From Burkholderiales bacterium (GTDB lineage Bacteria > Pseudomonadota > Gammaproteobacteria > Burkholderiales > Casimicrobiaceae), in contig JAICKU010000001.1 of NCBI GenBank assembly GCA_025927765.1, positions 1 to 64,000 on the forward strand: DNA of 64,000 bases. Direction: 5' to 3'. The number at the start of each line of letters is the position of its first letter. Position 1 is the stretch's first letter. Of this stretch, positions 1 to 63,035 are shown piece after piece. The notes beneath the pieces are model-generated. The model was not told where the DNA came from, made no database searches, and was given only the letters and a program-made list of their open reading frames with translations. A program made the position numbers and the translations under genes.

Positions 1-240
1 CCCACTGGCAAACGAATGTATTGGCCGGCTGGGTACTCGGCACCGGATTCCGGTATCTCTCGACCAAGTACAAGACCCCATTTTTCCTTTCGGTTCTGCC
101 TCACGGCTTTGGCCGTAGGAATCCAATCGCGCTGGTAGCGGCCCCTCGAAGCTGGCGATCGTCGCTGGTGAACGGACTGCCGGCTACGCGCGCACTCTCT
201 CAAATGCATCGCCTGTGGACTATCTCATCTGGAGGGAAAA

Positions 241-786
241 GTGGCGCCGAGAGGTATCGTCACCGGATTTGTTCTAGCAATTGTTGTCGCTGCCATCGTC
301 GGCTACCTGTTTGTGCAAAGCGGTGCAATCCCCGCGAATGCCGACGCCAAACCGGGCTTTCTGGAGACATGGGCCGCACGAACTTCGCTGCACGCGACGC
401 TCGCTCGTGACGCCCCCAAGTCGGCCAATCCCATCCCCGACACCGAACAGAATCTCTTGACTGGTGTTCGCTTGTTCGCGCGAAACTGCGCCGTGTGCCA
501 CGGCTCCGCAAAAGGTGATGCCGCGGCTTCGCCCATCGCCAAGGGGCTTTACCAAAAGCCACCACAATTTGCGACCGAAGGCGTCGAGGACGACCCGGAA
601 GGAGTTTCCTTCTGGAAAATCAAGCATGGCATTCGTTTGACGGGCATGCCGTCATTTGCGGGAGCACTGAGCGACAACGAGATCTGGACGATTGCGCTGT
701 TTCTGAAGCACATGGACCACTTACCGCCTGCCGTGCAGTCGGCGTGGCAGAAAGTCCAAAACTGGCCGATTGCTTCAGGGGACTGA
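241..786 (+). CDS. membrane-anchored class I cytochrome c
   Basis: A 181-residue protein with an N-terminal membrane segment (about residues 6-29) and one heme c site, CAVCH, at residues 83-87. Met136 in the stretch LTGMPSF is the likely sixth heme ligand. It is probably a periplasmic electron carrier held by its N-terminal anchor; partner enzymes are not visible because the window begins here. The GTG start is chosen because GGAGGG lies just upstream and the hydrophobic anchor begins right after it. Base composition looks less GC-rich than in genes after 1.2 kb, and the gene sits next to a tRNA, so it may belong to a separate island. The heme-binding assignment is firm; the physiological role is unknown. 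Confidence 0.85.
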   Translation: MAPRGIVTGFVLAIVVAAIVGYLFVQSGAIPANADAKPGFLETWAARTSLHATLARDAPKSANPIPDTEQNLLTGVRLFARNCAVCHGSAKGDAAASPIAKGLYQKPPQFATEGVEDDPEGVSFWKIKHGIRLTGMPSFAGALSDNEIWTIALFLKHMDHLPPAVQSAWQKVQNWPIASGD

Positions 787-1046
787 CCAGCCGTGCCGCC
801 CGGTGCGGTGTCGGGCGACTCCATTCACGGCACCTTGCCAGCATCATTTACGACAGGGTGCCAGACGATGCTCTTCGCCGCGCGCTACGAACGTGGTGAG
901 CAATGTTGTCACCATGTGTTGGCCCCGACGTTCGGCGACGTGTCCGGCAGTCAGGTCCTCGCCGAATTGCTTGGGCGTCTCCGCGCGGGTCGCTCGCAGG
1001 TATGCGAATACCTGGGCGAGCTGTTCGGGCCTTTCGTCGCGCCGAA
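787..1046. other. non-coding stretch between cytochrome gene and tRNA terminator
   Basis: About 260 bases with no convincing gene. Short open frames exist on both strands, but none has a ribosome-binding site, a recognisable motif or codon use typical of the neighbours. No repeat or mobile-element remnant was recognised. Confidence 0.4.
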
Positions 1047-1076
1047 AAACAAAAAGCCCTGATTTCTCAAGGCTTT
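1047..1076 (-). terminator. Rho-independent terminator downstream of tRNA-Ala
   Basis: Read on the minus strand, AAAGCC and GGCTTT form a stem, continued by TGA/TCA with a small bulge around a short loop. A T-rich run follows immediately. It lies 12 bases past the CCA end of the tRNA, as expected for its transcription terminator. Confidence 0.75.
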
Positions 1077-1087
1077 AGTGTATTTCA

Positions 1088-1163
<76 letters not shown>

Positions 1164-1249
1164 AGTCAGGCGTTATTATAGCTCACGGACCCGCGCATCG
1201 TTAACGCCCGGGCCGCGTCAATTCGACCTCCGGGCGGCCGTTCGGGCTC

Positions 1250-1804
1250 ATGGATTCGACTTCGCCGGCGACAGCGGCCTCTCGCGACGCGGCACCCGCC
1301 GCGGAGGATCTCTTCGCGGCGCTCTACGCCGAGCTCCATCGTCTCGCGCATGCGCAACTTCGCGCGAACGCCGGCGTGTCGGTCAGCGCGACGACGCTGC
1401 TGCACGAAGCCTTCCTCAGCATGCGCGAGCGCGATGCGGGCGCGTTTCCCGACCGCGCGCGATTCATCGGTTATGCGGCACGAGCGATGCGAGGACTCGT
1501 CATAGACCATGCGCGCAATCGCCACGCGCAAAAGCGCGGCGCCGCTTTCCACTTCACGGCCCTCGACACGCACGTCGCCGAAGTCGCTGTCGGCGACGAG
1601 GAGGACGTCGTGCGCGTCGCCGACGCGATCGAGAGTCTCGCGCAGCTGGACCCGGCGCTTGCCGAGCTCGTCGACCTCAAGTTCTTCTGCGGCCTGTCGA
1701 TCGCCGAGATCGCCGCGCTTCGCGGTATCTCCGAGCGCACCGTGGGCCGCGACTGGCTGAAGGCACGCATCTATCTGCGCCGCGTCCTTCGCCACGACGG
1801 TTGA
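1250..1804 (+). CDS. ECF-type RNA polymerase sigma factor (sigma-70 X6 / kinase-linked group)
   Basis: A 184-residue ECF sigma factor. The sigma-2 region spans about residues 20-95 and includes the stretch from ARFIGYAARAM to HARNRHAQKR. The sigma-4 helix-turn-helix is at about 130-182, around LSIAEIAALRGISERTV. It would direct RNA polymerase to a small set of promoters. The sequence style matches the ECF group often encoded beside Ser/Thr kinases, and here the stop codon overlaps the kinase start (TGATG), so the two are almost certainly co-translated. No anti-sigma factor is present; the kinase is the obvious candidate regulator, which is inference. The target could include the downstream di-heme gene. 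Confidence 0.9.
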   Translation: MDSTSPATAASRDAAPAAEDLFAALYAELHRLAHAQLRANAGVSVSATTLLHEAFLSMRERDAGAFPDRARFIGYAARAMRGLVIDHARNRHAQKRGAAFHFTALDTHVAEVAVGDEEDVVRVADAIESLAQLDPALAELVDLKFFCGLSIAEIAALRGISERTVGRDWLKARIYLRRVLRHDG

Positions 1805-4677: not shown

Positions 4678-6120
4678 ATGCCCTGCCTCCGCCAACGAAA
4701 GCTGGTCGCGCTCGCCATTGCCTCGCTTGCACTGTCGAGCGCACCGAGCAGCGCCGGCGACCGCCACGCACCGCCCGCCTTTCTCGTCTTTCCCGATGCG
4801 ACCGGTGCTGCCGCGACGTATTCGACGAAGGGCGCGATCGACCTCACGAACCCGTTCTTCCAGGTGCTCGGCACGAACGGACGCGCGTGCGTCACCTGTC
4901 ACGCGCCCGAGAGCGGATGGTCGGTGACGCCGCAGTCGCTGCGGCAGCGCTTCGATGCGACGAACGGCATGGATCCGATCTTTCGCCCGGTCGACGGCGC
5001 CGTTTCACCCACCATGGACGTGTCGACGCTCAAGGCCCGGCTCGTCGCGTACGACATGCTGCTGCGCAAGGGCCTGATCCGCATCGGCATCGGCATTCCG
5101 GAGGATGCGCAGTTCGAACTCGTCGCCGTCGACGATCCGTACGGCTATGCGAGTGCGAAGGAGCTGTCGCTCTTCCGCCGCCCGTTGCCCGCGACGAACC
5201 TCGCGTTCCTGAGCACGGTTATGTTCGACGGCCGCGAGACCTTCGCCGACGCGACGTCGCGCGACTGCATTCTCGGCACGTCGACGTGCTTCGCGTCGAT
5301 TCACTTCGACCTCGTCGACCAGGCCAACGGCGCGACGACCGGGCACGCGCAGGCGACGCACCCGCTGACGCCCGCGCAGGCCGATGCGATCGCCGATTTC
5401 GAAAGCAGTCTGTACACCGCGCAGGTGTTCGACCACGACGCCGGCAACCTGATGGCGCGTCAGGCGCAGGGCGGCCCGATGAGCCTGGCGGCAACGGCGT
5501 TCCATTTCGGCATCAACGACGTCGTTTCCGGCGATTACGCAACCGGTGCGCTGTTCGATCCGAACGTGTTCGAGCTCTATGCGTCGTGGAACGAGGCCGG
5601 TCACCACGCGCCCGACCCCGGCGAAGCGGTGGACCGCAGCGACGCGCGCGCGGCGGTCGCGCGCGGCGAAGCGCTGTTCGATTCGAAGCCGATCGCGATC
5701 ACCGGCGTCGGCGGGCTGAACGATGCGCTGAATGCGCCGACGATCAACGGCACGTGCTCGACGTGCCACGACACGCCGAATGCCGGCAGTCATTCGGTGC
5801 CTGTGCCGCTCGACATCGGCATTTCCGATGCATCGCGGCGCACGCCCGACCTGCCGCTGTACACGCTGCGCCACACGACGCCGCCGTTCGAAATCGTGCA
5901 GACGACCGACCCGGGGCGCGCACTCGTCACCGGGCGCTGGCAGGACATCGGCCGCTTCAAGGGCCCGACGCTGCGCGGGCTCGCGACGCATCCGCCGTAT
6001 TTTCACAATGGCTCGGCCGCTGATCTGTCGGCGGTCGTCGACTTCTACGATGCGCGCTTCCACATCGGCTTCACCAGTCAGGAGAAGCACGATCTGATCG
6101 CCTTCCTGCGCAGCTTGTGA
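4678..6120 (+). CDS. secreted di-heme cytochrome c (cytochrome c peroxidase/MauG-like family)
   Basis: A 480-residue protein with a cleavable signal peptide (the first ~25 residues, ending near SSAG) and two heme c motifs: CVTCH in the N-terminal half and CSTCH in the C-terminal half. The C-terminal part has the family pattern GPTLRGLATHPPYFHNG, typical of bacterial di-heme peroxidases and MauG relatives. It should be periplasmic. It is about 100 residues longer than classical CcpA because of extra sequence between the hemes, so the substrate may be something other than hydrogen peroxide. The start at 4678 is preferred over an in-frame ATG at 4633 because it places the signal peptide at the N-terminus. 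It follows the sigma/kinase pair after a 126-base gap and may be their target. Confidence 0.85.
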   Translation: MPCLRQRKLVALAIASLALSSAPSSAGDRHAPPAFLVFPDATGAAATYSTKGAIDLTNPFFQVLGTNGRACVTCHAPESGWSVTPQSLRQRFDATNGMDPIFRPVDGAVSPTMDVSTLKARLVAYDMLLRKGLIRIGIGIPEDAQFELVAVDDPYGYASAKELSLFRRPLPATNLAFLSTVMFDGRETFADATSRDCILGTSTCFASIHFDLVDQANGATTGHAQATHPLTPAQADAIADFESSLYTAQVFDHDAGNLMARQAQGGPMSLAATAFHFGINDVVSGDYATGALFDPNVFELYASWNEAGHHAPDPGEAVDRSDARAAVARGEALFDSKPIAITGVGGLNDALNAPTINGTCSTCHDTPNAGSHSVPVPLDIGISDASRRTPDLPLYTLRHTTPPFEIVQTTDPGRALVTGRWQDIGRFKGPTLRGLATHPPYFHNGSAADLSAVVDFYDARFHIGFTSQEKHDLIAFLRSL

Positions 6121-8743: not shown

Positions 8744-8766
8744 AGGAAAAATCCGCTCAGAGATGG

Positions 8767-8931
8767 AAAATCGGGGTCAGAGATGTATTTTCGGCCGGCG
8801 AATCGCAAGGTCGCCAGTCTCCACGGAAATGCATCTCTGACCCCTGATTTCGCAAGGTCGCCAGTCTCCATGGAAATGCATCTCTGACCCTGATTTCGGA
8901 CCCTGATTTCCGGGCTCGACCCGCATTTTTC
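8767..8931. repeat. palindromic GGGTCAGA-type element, copy R1, with internal tandem duplication
   Basis: The whole recG-CPBP gap is built from this element. The left arm begins AAAATCGGGGTCAGAGATG and the right arm reads GAAATGCATCTCTGACCCC. A 47-48-base unit starting CGCAAGGTCGCCAGTC occurs twice in tandem (8804-8851 and 8851-8897), differing at one substitution and one length change. Two further short GACCC fragments follow. The core resembles RAYT-mobilised REP-type sequences. Confidence 0.85.
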
Positions 8932-11151: not shown

Positions 11152-11162
11152 CTAAGGATCAC

Positions 11163-11266
11163 CAGAGTAGGGTCAGAGCGTACTTTTCGGCGCCGGCAGC
11201 GGCCATTGCGAGCGCTCGCAGCGAAAAGTCGGGTCTGACCCTACTTTCGTTCGCGACCCTACTTTC
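11163..11266. repeat. palindromic GGGTCAGA-type element, copy R2
   Basis: It fills most of the 141-base hemA-prfA gap. The left arm reads AGTAGGGTCAGAG then ACTTTTCG, and the right arm reads CGAAAAGT then TCTGACCCTACTTTCG. The trailing GACCCTACTTTCG unit is repeated once more. The arms match each other but carry different flanking letters from R1. Confidence 0.85.
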
Positions 11267-20127: not shown

Positions 20128-21441
20128 ATGAGCGTCATCGCGACGATCGAGGCGGGGAGCCTTCTGCGGCCGAGCTTCACCGCGCTGCCGCCGCTCGCGC
20201 TGTACGTGCATGTCCCGTGGTGCCTGCGCAAGTGCCCGTACTGCGACTTCAATTCGCACGAGCTTCGCGCAGCCGGCTCCGTGCAGGACGCTCTGCCCGA
20301 GGACGCGTACGTGGACGCGCTGATCGCCGACCTCGAGCGCGCGCTGCCGTCGATCTGGGGACGGATCGTCGGCAGCGTGTTCATCGGCGGCGGTACGCCG
20401 AGCCTGCTGTCGGCCGCCGCGATCGATCGCTTCCTCGGTGCGGTGCGTGCGCGCGTTTCGGTGCGTCCCGATGCCGAGATCACGCTCGAGGCGAATCCCG
20501 GCACGTTCGAGCGCGCGCGCTTCGCGGGTTACTTCGCCGCGGGCGTGAACCGGCTGTCGCTCGGCGTGCAGAGCTTCGACGACCGCTTCCTGAAAGTGCT
20601 CGGCCGCGTGCACGGCGCGGACGAAGCGCGACGCGCGGCGGAATCGGCGCTGATGATCTTCGGCAACGTCAATCTCGATCTCATGTACGCGCTGCCGGGC
20701 CAGATGCCCGACGACGCAGCGCGCGACGTGTCCTCGGCGCTGTCGTTCGCGCCGCCGCATCTTTCGTTCTATCAGTTGACGCTCGAGCCGAACACGCTCT
20801 TCCACCGTCATCCGCCGTCGTTGCCCGATGACGAGACGGCAGCCGACATCGAGGACGAGGTGCAGGCGATGCTCGGACGCGCGGGGTACGGGCATTACGA
20901 GACGTCGGCGCACGCGAAGCCGGGCTGGCAGTGCCGGCACAACGTCAATTACTGGCGCTTCGGCGATTACCTCGGCATCGGCGCAGGCGCGCATTCGAAG
21001 CTGTCGTTTCCCGATCGCGTCATGCGCGAGATCCGATGGAAGCAGCCGAAGCGCTATCTCGAAGCGGTGACGCAGGGCACGCCCGTGCAGGAGAGCGTCG
21101 AAGTGTCGCGAGGGGACCTGCCGTTCGAGTTCATGCTGAATGCGCTGCGCCTCACCGCGGGAGTGCCCGCGTCGCTGTTCGTCGAGCGCACGGGATTGCC
21201 GCTGTCGGTGATCGCGCAGCCGATCGCCGAGGCGACGCGCAAGGGCCTGCTCGACCCGGATCCGGCGCTGCTTGCGCCCACGCTCCTCGGCCGCCGCTTC
21301 CTGAACGACCTGCAGGAGCTCTTCCTGCCCGAAAAGGCAGCGTCACAAAAAGTAGGGTCGGACTCTACTTTTGTGGCGCGCGACTCTGCGCTTTCGCCCG
21401 CTCGCATGCAAGTCGGATCCGACCCTACCTTTCCGCGATGA
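20128..21441 (+). CDS. hemW: HemW, radical SAM heme chaperone (coproporphyrinogen oxidase-like)
   Basis: A 437-residue radical SAM protein. The 4Fe-4S cysteines are C32, C36 and C39 in WCLRKCPYCDF, followed by GGGTPS and the HemN-type C-terminal domain. The CxxxCxxC spacing with CDFNSH identifies HemW, which inserts heme into respiratory proteins, rather than the true oxidase HemN. The normal C-terminus is RRFLNDLQELFLP. After it come about 33 extra residues encoded by repeat R3, containing VGSDSTF and VGSDPTF. The stop codon overlaps the next start (ATGA). The extension is unlikely to be needed for function but should be translated. Confidence 0.95.
   Translation: MSVIATIEAGSLLRPSFTALPPLALYVHVPWCLRKCPYCDFNSHELRAAGSVQDALPEDAYVDALIADLERALPSIWGRIVGSVFIGGGTPSLLSAAAIDRFLGAVRARVSVRPDAEITLEANPGTFERARFAGYFAAGVNRLSLGVQSFDDRFLKVLGRVHGADEARRAAESALMIFGNVNLDLMYALPGQMPDDAARDVSSALSFAPPHLSFYQLTLEPNTLFHRHPPSLPDDETAADIEDEVQAMLGRAGYGHYETSAHAKPGWQCRHNVNYWRFGDYLGIGAGAHSKLSFPDRVMREIRWKQPKRYLEAVTQGTPVQESVEVSRGDLPFEFMLNALRLTAGVPASLFVERTGLPLSVIAQPIAEATRKGLLDPDPALLAPTLLGRRFLNDLQELFLPEKAASQKVGSDSTFVARDSALSPARMQVGSDPTFPR
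21346..21435. repeat. palindromic GGGTCGGA-type element, copy R3, inside hemW
   Basis: The left part AAAAAGTAGGGTCGGACTC continues into TACTTTTG and is itself nearly palindromic. The right part is AAGTCGGATCCGACCCTACC. The whole element lies in the hemW reading frame and codes for the C-terminal extension, including two VGSD peptides. Confidence 0.85.
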
Positions 21442-23297: not shown

Positions 23298-23341
23298 AGG
23301 GTCACACCTTACATTTCGCGAAAGTAGGGTCTGACCCCGAG
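23298..23341. repeat. degenerate GGGTCTGA-type element, copy R4
   Basis: A shorter, less symmetrical copy: AGGGTCACACC then CGCGAAAGTAGGGTCTGACCCC. The core and the AAAGTAGGGTC string match R2 and R3. It occupies the entire 45-base gap between two minus-strand genes. Confidence 0.65.
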
Positions 23342-23342
23342 A

Positions 23343-29902: not shown

Positions 29903-29991
29903 CAGGAAATGCGGAAATGCGGGTCAGAGATGGATTTCGCTGCGCGAAATCCATCTCTGACCCGCATTTCCGTGCCGACCCGCATTTCCTG
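29903..29991. repeat. palindromic GGGTCAGA-type element, copy R5, perfect 28-bp hairpin
   Basis: The arms at 29913-29940 and 29944-29971 are exact inverted complements over 28 bases around a 3-base loop. The left arm begins GGAAATGCGGGTCAGAGATG. A further outer pair, CAGGAAATGCGG and CCGCATTTCCTG, nests around it. It fills the convergent gap between the Lrp gene and the pteridine reductase gene and could also act as a bidirectional terminator. Confidence 0.95.
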
Positions 29992-31998: not shown

Positions 31999-32397
31999 TC
32001 ACTCGACGACGACTGTGCCCTTCATGATCGTGTGGAACGTGCAGAGGTAGTCGAAGCGGCCTGGCTTCCTCGCCACCCAGCGATAGGTCGCCCCGGCCGC
32101 GATGCTGCCCGAATCGAAGCCGCCGGACGTCGACGTCGCGGTGTGCGGCACGGGATCGTCGTTGCGCCACTCGATCGTGTCGCCGGCCTTGACCGTCACG
32201 ACCGGCGGCTTGAACGCGAAGCCGTCGATCGTGACGACGTGGGTCTGCGAGCGCGGCCGCGACGATTGGGCAGCGGAAGCCTGCGGCACAAACAGAGGAT
32301 CGGAACCCACTTTCGTTGGGAAGGCCGCAACGGAACCGGGGTCCGACCCAAGCGCCAGCGCGAGCGCCAGCACCCAGGCGATGCGCCCGCGTGTCAC
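31999..32397 (-). CDS. secreted cupredoxin (plastocyanin/amicyanin-like) with repeat-derived leader
   Basis: A 132-residue exported protein. The C-terminal 85 residues are a cupredoxin domain with the copper ligands visible: His in PVPHTATS, then Cys, His and Met in CTFHTIMKG. It should carry electrons or bind copper in the periplasm. The N-terminus has a hydrophobic signal (AWVLALALALG), but between it and the mature domain are about 27 residues encoded by repeat R6 (GSDPGSV and VGSDPLF). Start is GTG. It lies one base after the DUF4142 stop, in an operon with an ECF sigma factor. Confidence 0.88.
   Translation of the reverse strand: MTRGRIAWVLALALALGSDPGSVAAFPTKVGSDPLFVPQASAAQSSRPRSQTHVVTIDGFAFKPPVVTVKAGDTIEWRNDDPVPHTATSTSGGFDSGSIAAGATYRWVARKPGRFDYLCTFHTIMKGTVVVE
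32294..32349. repeat. GGGTCGGA-type element, copy R6, inside the cupredoxin leader
   Basis: Read in the gene direction it starts GGGTCGGACCCCGGTTCCG and ends CGAAAGTGGGTTCCGATCC. The two halves show the same core and the CGAAAGT string of the other copies, although pairing is imperfect. It is translated in frame into the GSDP-type peptides of the leader. Confidence 0.65.
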
Positions 32398-32398
32398 C

Positions 32399-32920
32399 TC
32401 ACTTCCCGTATTCCGACTGCAGTTTCTTCGCGTGATCGAGGTGCGCGACGAACGCCGGCCGCACCTTGACGAGCAGCGCCTTGAGTTCTGCGTTGTGCGC
32501 GCTCGGGATCAGCGTGTTGTCCATCGCGTCGATCACCTGCTGGTGATAGACGACTTCGTGGTCGATGTACGCCTTGTCGAAGGCGTCGCCCTTCAGCGTC
32601 TTCAGGTGCGCGACGTTTTCCTGCCCGCCCTTCTTGAGACTTTCGGCCGTCGGGTTGTCCTCGGGCTTCACGCCGAGCTTCTTCACGAGGTCCTTGGCCG
32701 ATTTGTTCACGCCCGTGTGGTCGGTGACCATCATCTTGCCGAACGCTTTCACGTCCTTGTGCGTCGCCTTCGACTCGGCGAGCTTGCCCGCGTCGATGTC
32801 GACCTGGTTCGCGGTGACGACGATCGCGGCGATCTGCGCGTCGTTGGGGCCGCCCTGCGCGTGGGCAGCGATCGAGGCGGCAAAAAAGGCGGCCGCCAGC
32901 GCCAGAGGCACTGTCTTCAT
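32399..32920 (-). CDS. DUF4142 (ferritin-like) secreted protein
   Basis: A 173-residue exported protein. A signal peptide (KTVPLALAAAFFAASIAAHA) is followed by a helical DUF4142 domain with the recurrent pattern AGKLAESKATHKDVKAFGKMMVTDH. It carries further histidines in YIDHEVVYHQQVIDAM. The fold is predicted to be a ferritin-like four-helix bundle; the function is unknown, and a stress or metal role is assumed from context. AGGAGATCACC precedes the start. It sits between the sigma factor (47 bases upstream) and the cupredoxin. Confidence 0.9.
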   Translation of the reverse strand: MKTVPLALAAAFFAASIAAHAQGGPNDAQIAAIVVTANQVDIDAGKLAESKATHKDVKAFGKMMVTDHTGVNKSAKDLVKKLGVKPEDNPTAESLKKGGQENVAHLKTLKGDAFDKAYIDHEVVYHQQVIDAMDNTLIPSAHNAELKALLVKVRPAFVAHLDHAKKLQSEYGK

Positions 32921-33715: not shown

Positions 33716-33721
33716 CGGCGA

Positions 33722-33836
33722 GAAATTGGGGTCAGGAGATCAGGGTCAGACTCCAATTGCCGGTCGTGTCGCGAGGCGCGGTCATTGGACCCCGACCCCA
33801 ATTTCCGGCCGAAAATGAGGGTACGACCCGGCTCTT
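33722..33836. repeat. palindromic GGGGTCAG-type element, copy R7
   Basis: The left arm has GAAATTGGGGTCAGG and AGGGTCAGACTCCAATTG. The right arm has CATTGGACCCC and GACCCCAATTTCCGGCC. A third partial unit, AAAATGAGGGTACGACCC, runs up to the stop codon of the antiporter gene. The arms match one another in the ATTGGGGTC string, which is absent from other copies. Confidence 0.85.
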
Positions 33837-52336: not shown

Positions 52337-52394
52337 GGAGTTTTGGGCCGGACTCCAAATGCGGTACCGTATTTCGAGTCCGACCCAAAACTCC
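52337..52394. repeat. palindromic element, copy R8, 29-bp arms
   Basis: The arms 52337-52365 and 52366-52394 meet at a central GGTACC and pair at 26 of 29 positions. The left arm begins GGAGTTTTGGGCCGGACTC. The core GGGNCGGA matches the family, but the outer letters are unique to this copy. It lies between the SDR and hemC. Confidence 0.9.
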
Positions 52395-61986: not shown

Positions 61987-62772
61987 ATGGACCTGGGATT
62001 GACGGATCGGATCGTCGTGGTGACCGGCGCGAGCAAGGGCATCGGGTTCGCGTGCGCGGACGCGTTCGCGCGGCAAGGCGCGCGCGTCGCGCTGGTTTCG
62101 CGCAGCCGCGCGAACCTCGACGGGGCGCTCGCGAAGATGCGCCATTTCACGCATCGTCCGCTGGCGTTCGCAGCCGATCTCAGCGATGCGCCACAGGCGC
62201 TCGCGATGGTCGACGCGGTCGAGTCGCAGGTCGGACCGATCGACGTGCTCGTGAACTCGGCGGGTGCTGCGAAGCGTTCGCCGCCGGCCGAGCTTTCGGC
62301 GAAGGCGTGGCACGACGCCATGGACGCCAAATTCTTCAGCTACATCCATCCGCTCGACGCGATCGTCAAGCGCATGGGCGCACGCGGCCACGGCGCGATC
62401 GTCAACATCATCGGACAGGGCGGCAAGGTCGCGAATCCCGTGCATCTGCCCGGCGGCGCGGCGAATGCGGCGCTGATGCTGGCGACCGCAGGGTTGGCGG
62501 CAGCGTATGGGCCGAACGGCGTGCGCGTGAACGCGATCAATCCCGGGGGCACGCTCACCGGTCGCGTGCAGGAAGGGCTTGCTGCGGAGGCGAGGATGAC
62601 GGGCATGACGCCCGACGACCTGCTCGAGCGGCAGCAGGCGCGCATTCCGCTGCGCAGGCTCGGCACGCCGGAAGAGGTGGCGGAGCTTGCGCTCTTCCTC
62701 GCGTCGCCGCGCGCGAGCTACATCACCGGGGCGATCGTGCCGATGGACGGCGGCGCCGCCGCCGTCATCTGA
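61987..62772 (+). CDS. SDR family oxidoreductase
   Basis: A 261-residue classical SDR. The cofactor motif is VVTGASKGIGFACADAF and the active-site region LVNSAGAAK. The usual Tyr-x-x-x-Lys is not evident; around the expected place the text reads GGKVANPVHLPGGAANAALM, so the Tyr may be replaced, as happens in some SDRs of aldehyde or hydroxy-acid pathways. The C-terminus ends with the family GAIVPMDGGAA. The substrate is unknown. Its stop codon lies inside the R9 palindrome. Confidence 0.85.
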   Translation: MDLGLTDRIVVVTGASKGIGFACADAFARQGARVALVSRSRANLDGALAKMRHFTHRPLAFAADLSDAPQALAMVDAVESQVGPIDVLVNSAGAAKRSPPAELSAKAWHDAMDAKFFSYIHPLDAIVKRMGARGHGAIVNIIGQGGKVANPVHLPGGAANAALMLATAGLAAAYGPNGVRVNAINPGGTLTGRVQEGLAAEARMTGMTPDDLLERQQARIPLRRLGTPEEVAELALFLASPRASYITGAIVPMDGGAAAVI

Positions 62773-62799
62773 AAAGCAGGGTCGGACCCTGCTTTTCAG
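62769..62799. repeat. minimal palindromic element, copy R9, perfect 15-bp arms
   Basis: CTGAAAAGCAGGGTC and GACCCTGCTTTTCAG flank a single G, a perfect 31-base palindrome. The stop codons of the SDR (plus strand) and the small lipoprotein (minus strand) both lie inside it. It could also serve as a bidirectional terminator because each arm ends in a short T or A tract. Confidence 0.9.
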
Positions 62800-63035
62800 T
62801 TGCCGGGCTTCTTGCCGAGCACGCTGCCCATCGGCCGGTTGACCGGATTCACGATGTCGCCGCCGCTGTGCACTTCGATGTTCTCCGCCGCGTAGTCCTT
62901 CACGGCGATGTTGCTGCCCGTGCGGTAGAACTTCTGCTCGCGAACCTCGGACGTCTTGTCGGGTGGCAATGGCGCGCATCCGATGCACACGACGAGCGAC
63001 GAAACGATTGCGAGCGGGAAGCCGGGCGCTTTCAT
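62796..63035 (-). CDS. small lipoprotein of the FYRTGSNI family, paralog 1
   Basis: A 79-residue lipoprotein with lipobox VCIGC (Cys20). The mature part contains KFYRTGSNIAVKDYAAENIEV and DIVNPVNRPMGS. A second gene at 63646-63909 codes for the same pattern, so this is a local paralog pair. GGGAAC is upstream of the ATG. The conserved Asn-Pro-Val-Asn-Arg-Pro end suggests a small surface or periplasmic structural role, but no function is known. Confidence 0.7.
   Translation of the reverse strand: MKAPGFPLAIVSSLVVCIGCAPLPPDKTSEVREQKFYRTGSNIAVKDYAAENIEVHSGGDIVNPVNRPMGSVLGKKPGN

Follow-up and report, generated by a model that had tools for sequence, protein, structure and literature searches.

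A GTAG-type palindromic repeat doublet that appears to be inserted in frame within the signal peptide of an amicyanin-like cupredoxin

REPINs are inverted doublets of REP sequences that fold into hairpins and carry a GTAG tetranucleotide (PMC3116915, PMC8266576), and the available text of the first of these papers places them in extragenic space. In a 2013 report (PMC3733652, available portions), GTAG palindromic repeats, often dimers, are described as lying wholly within genes in several species, the intragenic dimers encoding 20-30 residues; the ends of GTAG REPs often provide TAG stops to neighbouring genes. Rickettsia palindromic elements (RPEs), 100-150 bp elements of Rickettsia and Wolbachia (PMC3767692), are inserted in many unrelated genes with the reading frame preserved, according to the accessible text of PMC3767692 and PMC10969869.

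Here we describe R6, in which two degenerate units of a palindromic repeat (consensus AAAGTAGGGTCNGACCCTACTTT) form an inverted doublet, and whose frame is open through the leader of a cupredoxin in a window of 64,000 nucleotides (the whole stretch of DNA analysed) from a Burkholderiales bacterium. Judged from the sequence, a mobile palindrome appears to have been inserted in frame into the export signal of this protein, adding about 20 residues. The R6 family resembles the intragenic REPs of PMC3733652, as described in its available text, in its GTAG, its dimers, its gene-internal copies and its TAG stops; it differs in repeat sequence and organism, in having a copy within a secretion signal, and in that its internal copies share one frame. 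With REPINs and RAYTs it shares the inverted, hairpin-forming doublet seen in R6, the family GTAG and, in the relative G006, a RAYT gene flanked on either side by palindromes of the family; unlike the extragenic REPINs of PMC3116915, in the text available, R6 sits within coding sequence, and its own GTAG is gone. Like RPEs, the family inserts in frame in unrelated genes, six of them with internal copies, but R6 is a doublet of about 60 nt in a Burkholderiales host, and we therefore reject RPE membership: it works alike without being a member. Since intragenic REPs and REP-supplied TAG stops were reported in 2013 (PMC3733652, available portions), R6 belongs to a known kind, to which it adds a further case; frame bias and signal-peptide position are possible extras. 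The available text of six papers (PMC3733652, PMC10969869, PMC8266576, PMC3767692, PMC3116915, PMC12306157) yielded no report of a REP frame preference or of a signal peptide that carries a REP, although the REP-encoded residues listed in the supplement of PMC3733652 may include cases of either.

The features of the locus are as follows.

31999-32397, minus strand: amicyanin-like cupredoxin gene, 132 aa, leader holding the R6 insert
32399-32920, minus strand: DUF4142 gene (PF13628, 3.7e-42), upstream of the cupredoxin gene
32350-32397, minus strand: putative n- and h-region of the signal peptide, MTRGRIAWVLALALAL, from hydropathy in 9-residue windows
32290-32349, minus strand: putative R6 insert, 60 nt, residues 17-36 (GSDPGSVAAFPTKVGSDPLF), from the codon map, doublet alignment and homologs
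about 32290-32352, minus strand: R6 as a DNA doublet, aligned with other doublets of the family
32338-32349, minus strand: core of REP unit 1, GGGTCGGACCCC, read GSDP
32290-32313, minus strand: REP unit 2, AAAGTGGGTTCCGATCCTCTGTTT, read KVGSDPLF, GTAG changed to GTGG
32268-32289, minus strand: presumed original c-region and cleavage site, VPQASA/AQ (cut after ASA), excluding the first base of the next codon region

The cupredoxin matches PF13473 (Cupredoxin_1, 1.1e-11) and PF00127 (Copper-bind, 1.4e-8), and its best matches in the PDB are a copper nitrite reductase domain and amicyanins. The amicyanin model TIGR02657 (NCBIfam) gives 5.7e-12, yet its 45.8 bits fall below the cut-off of 110.2; we accordingly dropped the name amicyanin and use "amicyanin-like" only. 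Residues H85, C119, H122 and M125, which we take to be the likely copper ligands, are shared with the homolog L047 in the alignment. A predicted fold (two-sequence input, low overall confidence, mean pLDDT 66) has strands spanning residues 52-131, with residues 13-34 among the stretches of pLDDT below 50. By its Pfam matches, the four shared residues and the predicted strands, the copper domain is intact. The start codon is GTG, one base past the TGA of the DUF4142 gene, beyond which lies a sigma-70 family gene.

The first 50 residues, MTRGRIAWVLALALALGSDPGSVAAFPTKVGSDPLFVPQASAAQSSRPRS, contain both GSDPGSV and VGSDPLF, as the initial annotation had noted in placing an in-frame repeat in this leader, but the span it gave (32283-32397) was too wide for the two units as located here. 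The leader reads MTRGRIAWVLALALAL-GSDPGSVAAFPTKVGSDPLF-VPQASAAQ. Once residues 17-36 are removed, what remains resembles an ordinary signal peptide with a hydrophobic stretch at about residues 6-17 by hydropathy, and the insert would thus sit between the hydrophobic core and the presumed original cleavage site, inside the signal peptide, and not exactly at the signal/mature junction as had been supposed. Signal peptidase I cleavage follows a small-residue rule, and GSVAA within the insert, which presumably fits that rule, is a candidate second cleavage motif. A search for an empty site at the DNA level found none, the leader of the closest homolog that shares the gene layout (L020/L047) being unalignable; with no relative found that combines the same leader and an empty site, we infer the boundaries of R6.

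At the DNA level R6 is strongly diverged. Unit 1 keeps little beyond its core, and the family GTAG is replaced by GTGG and CTTG. Used as a DNA query against its own genome, R6 found only itself, and a generic repeat search of the window returned mainly weak GC-rich matches, with R6 absent from the families listed; it was picked up instead with targeted patterns. The two units share a codon phase and lie 42 nt apart. Doublets of GGNTCNGANCC in frame on one strand, spaced 20-70 nt apart, gave two counts in the window, both of them R6, which is counted once per strand because it is palindromic; 60 simulated windows with the dinucleotide frequencies of the window gave a mean of 0.033. Single cores number 12, against 2.33 expected in the same kind of simulation. 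As single-stranded DNA R6 folds with z = -2.94, and 2 of 200 shuffles fold equally well. These figures bear on the proposal that the GSDP peptides of the leader arose by chance, unrelated to the repeat. Such an origin would suit the codon choice of R6, the most diverged among the KxGSDP sites listed, but the doublet count, the hairpin score, the match of the AAA and TTT flanks of unit 2 to other doublets of the family, and the finding of a similar leader in none of 14 aligned homologs make it extremely improbable.

The GSDP insert is absent from all 14 aligned cupredoxin homologs, as opposed to the same leader recurring in repeat-free orthologs, the outcome named beforehand as fatal to the repeat interpretation. 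For 11 of the 14, the genomes belong to our 61-genome search and contain no family site at one mismatch or fewer; the other three genomes lie outside that search. Five further genes with internal copies tell a similar story. In HrpA, eight repeat-encoded residues are missing in 9/9 aligned homologs; in RlmD the repeat lies in a loop and its GSDP is missing in 9/9; in a TPR-cyclase protein it lies in a linker and is missing in 6/6; in a DUF2891 protein it is missing in 7/7; and in an asparaginase it stands just before the last helix and is missing in 6/6 aligned, distant homologs (34-37% identity). The alignments used the loci that each search gave, from 9 of 26 matching genomes for HrpA, 9 of 29 for RlmD, 6 of 10 for the cyclase, 7 of 14 for DUF2891, 6 of 8 for asparaginase and 14 of 25 for the cupredoxin, the bacterium's own genome excluded. 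HrpA, RlmD and HemW are named by NCBIfam models above their cut-offs. Linker or loop length also varies among repeat-free homologs of RlmD, the cyclase and the cupredoxin.

The wider family is abundant in the genome of the bacterium, a 4.0 Mb draft in 148 contigs. GTAGGGTCNGACCCTAC occurs there at 97 sites with two mismatches or fewer (reversed control, 2) and at 28 with one or none (reversed control, 1). The genome-wide search for VGSDP-type peptides suggested at the outset finds 65 sites coding for K[VATIM]GSDP with any codons, and none in the reversed control. Among 60 relatives, four, all of the same genus, have sites at one mismatch or fewer (G001, 1; G002, 2; G006, 5; G009, 17). We classified at least 131 unique palindromes at two mismatches or fewer, 51 of them exact. 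Among the matches listed, the 131 divide into 87 intergenic, 21 over a gene end and 23 in a predicted gene, and the exact ones into 31, 12 and 8, predicted genes being those of a purpose-written codon-usage gene finder, not a published program. Eight of the 51 exact copies end one or both neighbouring genes with their own TAG, and in three more cases a TGA within a variant palindrome does so. TAG ends 84 of 250 predicted genes near REPs of this genome (counted with redundancy) but 7 of 51 in the window, an excess expected if palindromes supply stops. GTAG is present in the family consensus, with GCAG and TGAG as variants. As a high-copy short palindrome with a family GTAG, and with R6 as an inverted doublet able to form a hairpin, the family fits a GTAG-type REP/REPIN best. 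In 12 stretches with KxGSDP sites, examined for codon-diverged copies in genes, all 12 sites lay outside predicted genes. The window also holds a second, related palindrome family with core GGGTCAGAGATG (8766-8896 and 29912-29972) and more palindromic repeats that belong to the same family or to related ones, for the most part intergenic, at 11161-11250, 23305-23342, 33716-33811, 52337-52394 and 62762-62806, the last a nearly perfect palindrome.

What moved these repeats? Genes matching Y1_Tnp (PF01797) number two in this genome, and 22 of 41 genomes searched, this one included, have a match. In the relative G006 a Y1_Tnp gene (locus L122) has GGGTCCGACCC palindromes as doublets on both sides. 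Around the two Y1_Tnp/RAYT genes of the bacterium itself stand inverted copies of palindromes that are related to the family yet distinct from it, GGGTCAGAGATG and GGGTCAGAGCG, the GGGTCAGAGATG copies flanking one of the two genes (L082, G000:C111). Mobilisation of the R6 family by a RAYT transposase is therefore an inference. The C-terminus of the L122 RAYT gene (560-1324, minus strand) reads through a family palindrome as RQGPTLF, in a phase other than that of GSDP.

Copies also extend the ends of genes. The copy that the initial annotation had placed in hemW is confirmed, and its peptides form a C-terminal extension of HemW, whose HemN_C domain ends at residue 391 of 437.

21348-21432, plus strand: R3 doublet, sister of R6, C-terminal tail of HemW, read VGSDSTF and VGSDPTF

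In the relatives G009 and G006 we saw no internal gene copies, and gene-end copies occur in all three phases: L162 and L163 in phase 0, L122 in phase 1, and L126, L150 (twice) and L155 in the GSDP phase. L126 (G009, 149-1081, minus strand) is a TruB gene by NCBIfam whose predicted start region, with an uncertain start codon, reads KVGSDPT; REPs in truB of other species are mentioned in the available text of PMC3733652.

Unrelated proteins thus share a peptide through the same repeat read in the same frame, as had been proposed: the cupredoxin, HemW, the five other genes with internal copies and several terminal cases. The proposal that they do so only because of this holds as regards the repeat, but may understate the matter, since the shared frame itself seems favoured. 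In each of the six genes with an internal copy the palindrome is read as GSDP, its central base falling at the third position of a codon. The 25-nt units of exact intergenic copies are free of stops at similar rates in the three phases, in 45, 39 and 43 of 62 strand-copies. Six of six internal copies in the GSDP frame, where about 0.35 is expected, corresponds to p of about 0.002, a post hoc and small figure that refers to the matches listed; leaving out the cupredoxin it is five of five, about 0.005. Of the 23 palindromes inside predicted genes (two mismatches or fewer), 17 in 14 genes were kept and six with two mismatches (L007, L015, L112 and window positions 5960, 36043 and 57115) were taken as chance because each of ten mononucleotide shuffles of the window yields 3-8 matches of this kind; five of these six are in phase 1 and would count against the frame rule if any were real. 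With terminal cases included, 12 of the 14 genes are in the GSDP phase and two (L088, L091) in phase 1. The statistic covers the six internal-copy genes, the N-terminal cases L073, L088 and L092 being set aside because their starts are uncertain and the C-terminal cases HemW, L077, L090, L091 and L117 because constraint there is weaker. On these sequences the GSDP frame seems favoured over other open frames. L091 (315-1616, plus strand) is a CCA-adding enzyme whose C-terminal tail runs through a GAGGGTC palindrome variant in phase 1, reading KEGQTL.

We consider it highly probable that R6 is a REP doublet inserted in frame in the cupredoxin signal peptide, translated and close to neutral. A non-autonomous doublet, REPIN-like and of the GTAG class, would have entered between the hydrophobic core and the original cleavage region with a net gain of a multiple of three nucleotides, and would be translated as part of the preprotein. 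Most likely the protein is still secreted, since its hydrophobic core is intact and cleavage could occur at the REP-encoded GSVAA or at the old ASAA. The extra peptide would be trimmed, or kept as a flexible tail outside the copper domain, leaving the insert close to neutral, and R6 is most likely a near-neutral passenger. Gene-internal copies would survive best in the GSDP frame, probably because this is a short polar turn, the other frames giving RVRP-like or QGxTLL-like peptides.

An insert that harms the leader, in a gene heading for loss or unexpressed, would be in keeping with some 20 extra residues between core and old cleavage site, an unusual spacing for a signal peptide; we judge this quite improbable in view of the open frame, the retained copper ligands, the alternative cleavage motif that the insert offers and the scoring of the ORF as coding, though weakly (17, codon-usage gene finder). 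R6 might instead be domesticated, supplying a working signal-peptidase site (GSVA/A or GSVAA/F) and a linker, and being maintained now by selection on the protein. In unit 2 the third positions of GTG, GGT, GAT and TTT differ from the consensus while the residues are unchanged, no other of the 65 KxGSDP sites combines GGT with GAT, two further core changes in R6 are none or synonymous (CCC), and GSVAA fits the cleavage rule. Yet the pattern is post hoc and covers few sites, the next codon (CTG for ACT) altered its residue, the flanks of unit 1 are altered too, and a palindrome that decays almost neutrally within coding sequence could give a like pattern, so that we regard domestication as rather unlikely.

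Beside the passenger reading, a doubtful extension would be that the repeat donates peptides in frame, that filtering at the level of the protein keeps those insertions inside genes which read KxGSDPxF, and that in the cupredoxin the signal-peptidase site has been replaced by the repeat. KxGSDPxF would then be a polar turn tolerated in loops, in linkers and even in a signal peptide; if this is true, a mobile palindrome has rebuilt a secretion signal.

With R6 and its sister copies, a group of proteins that carry REPs, and whose homologs show the insert-free state, joins a phenomenon known best from Rickettsia. The cupredoxin offers a simple test of how far a signal peptide tolerates added residues between core and cleavage site, and, should a complete count bear out the frame bias, the family would be a measurable case of mobile DNA being filtered at the level of the protein.
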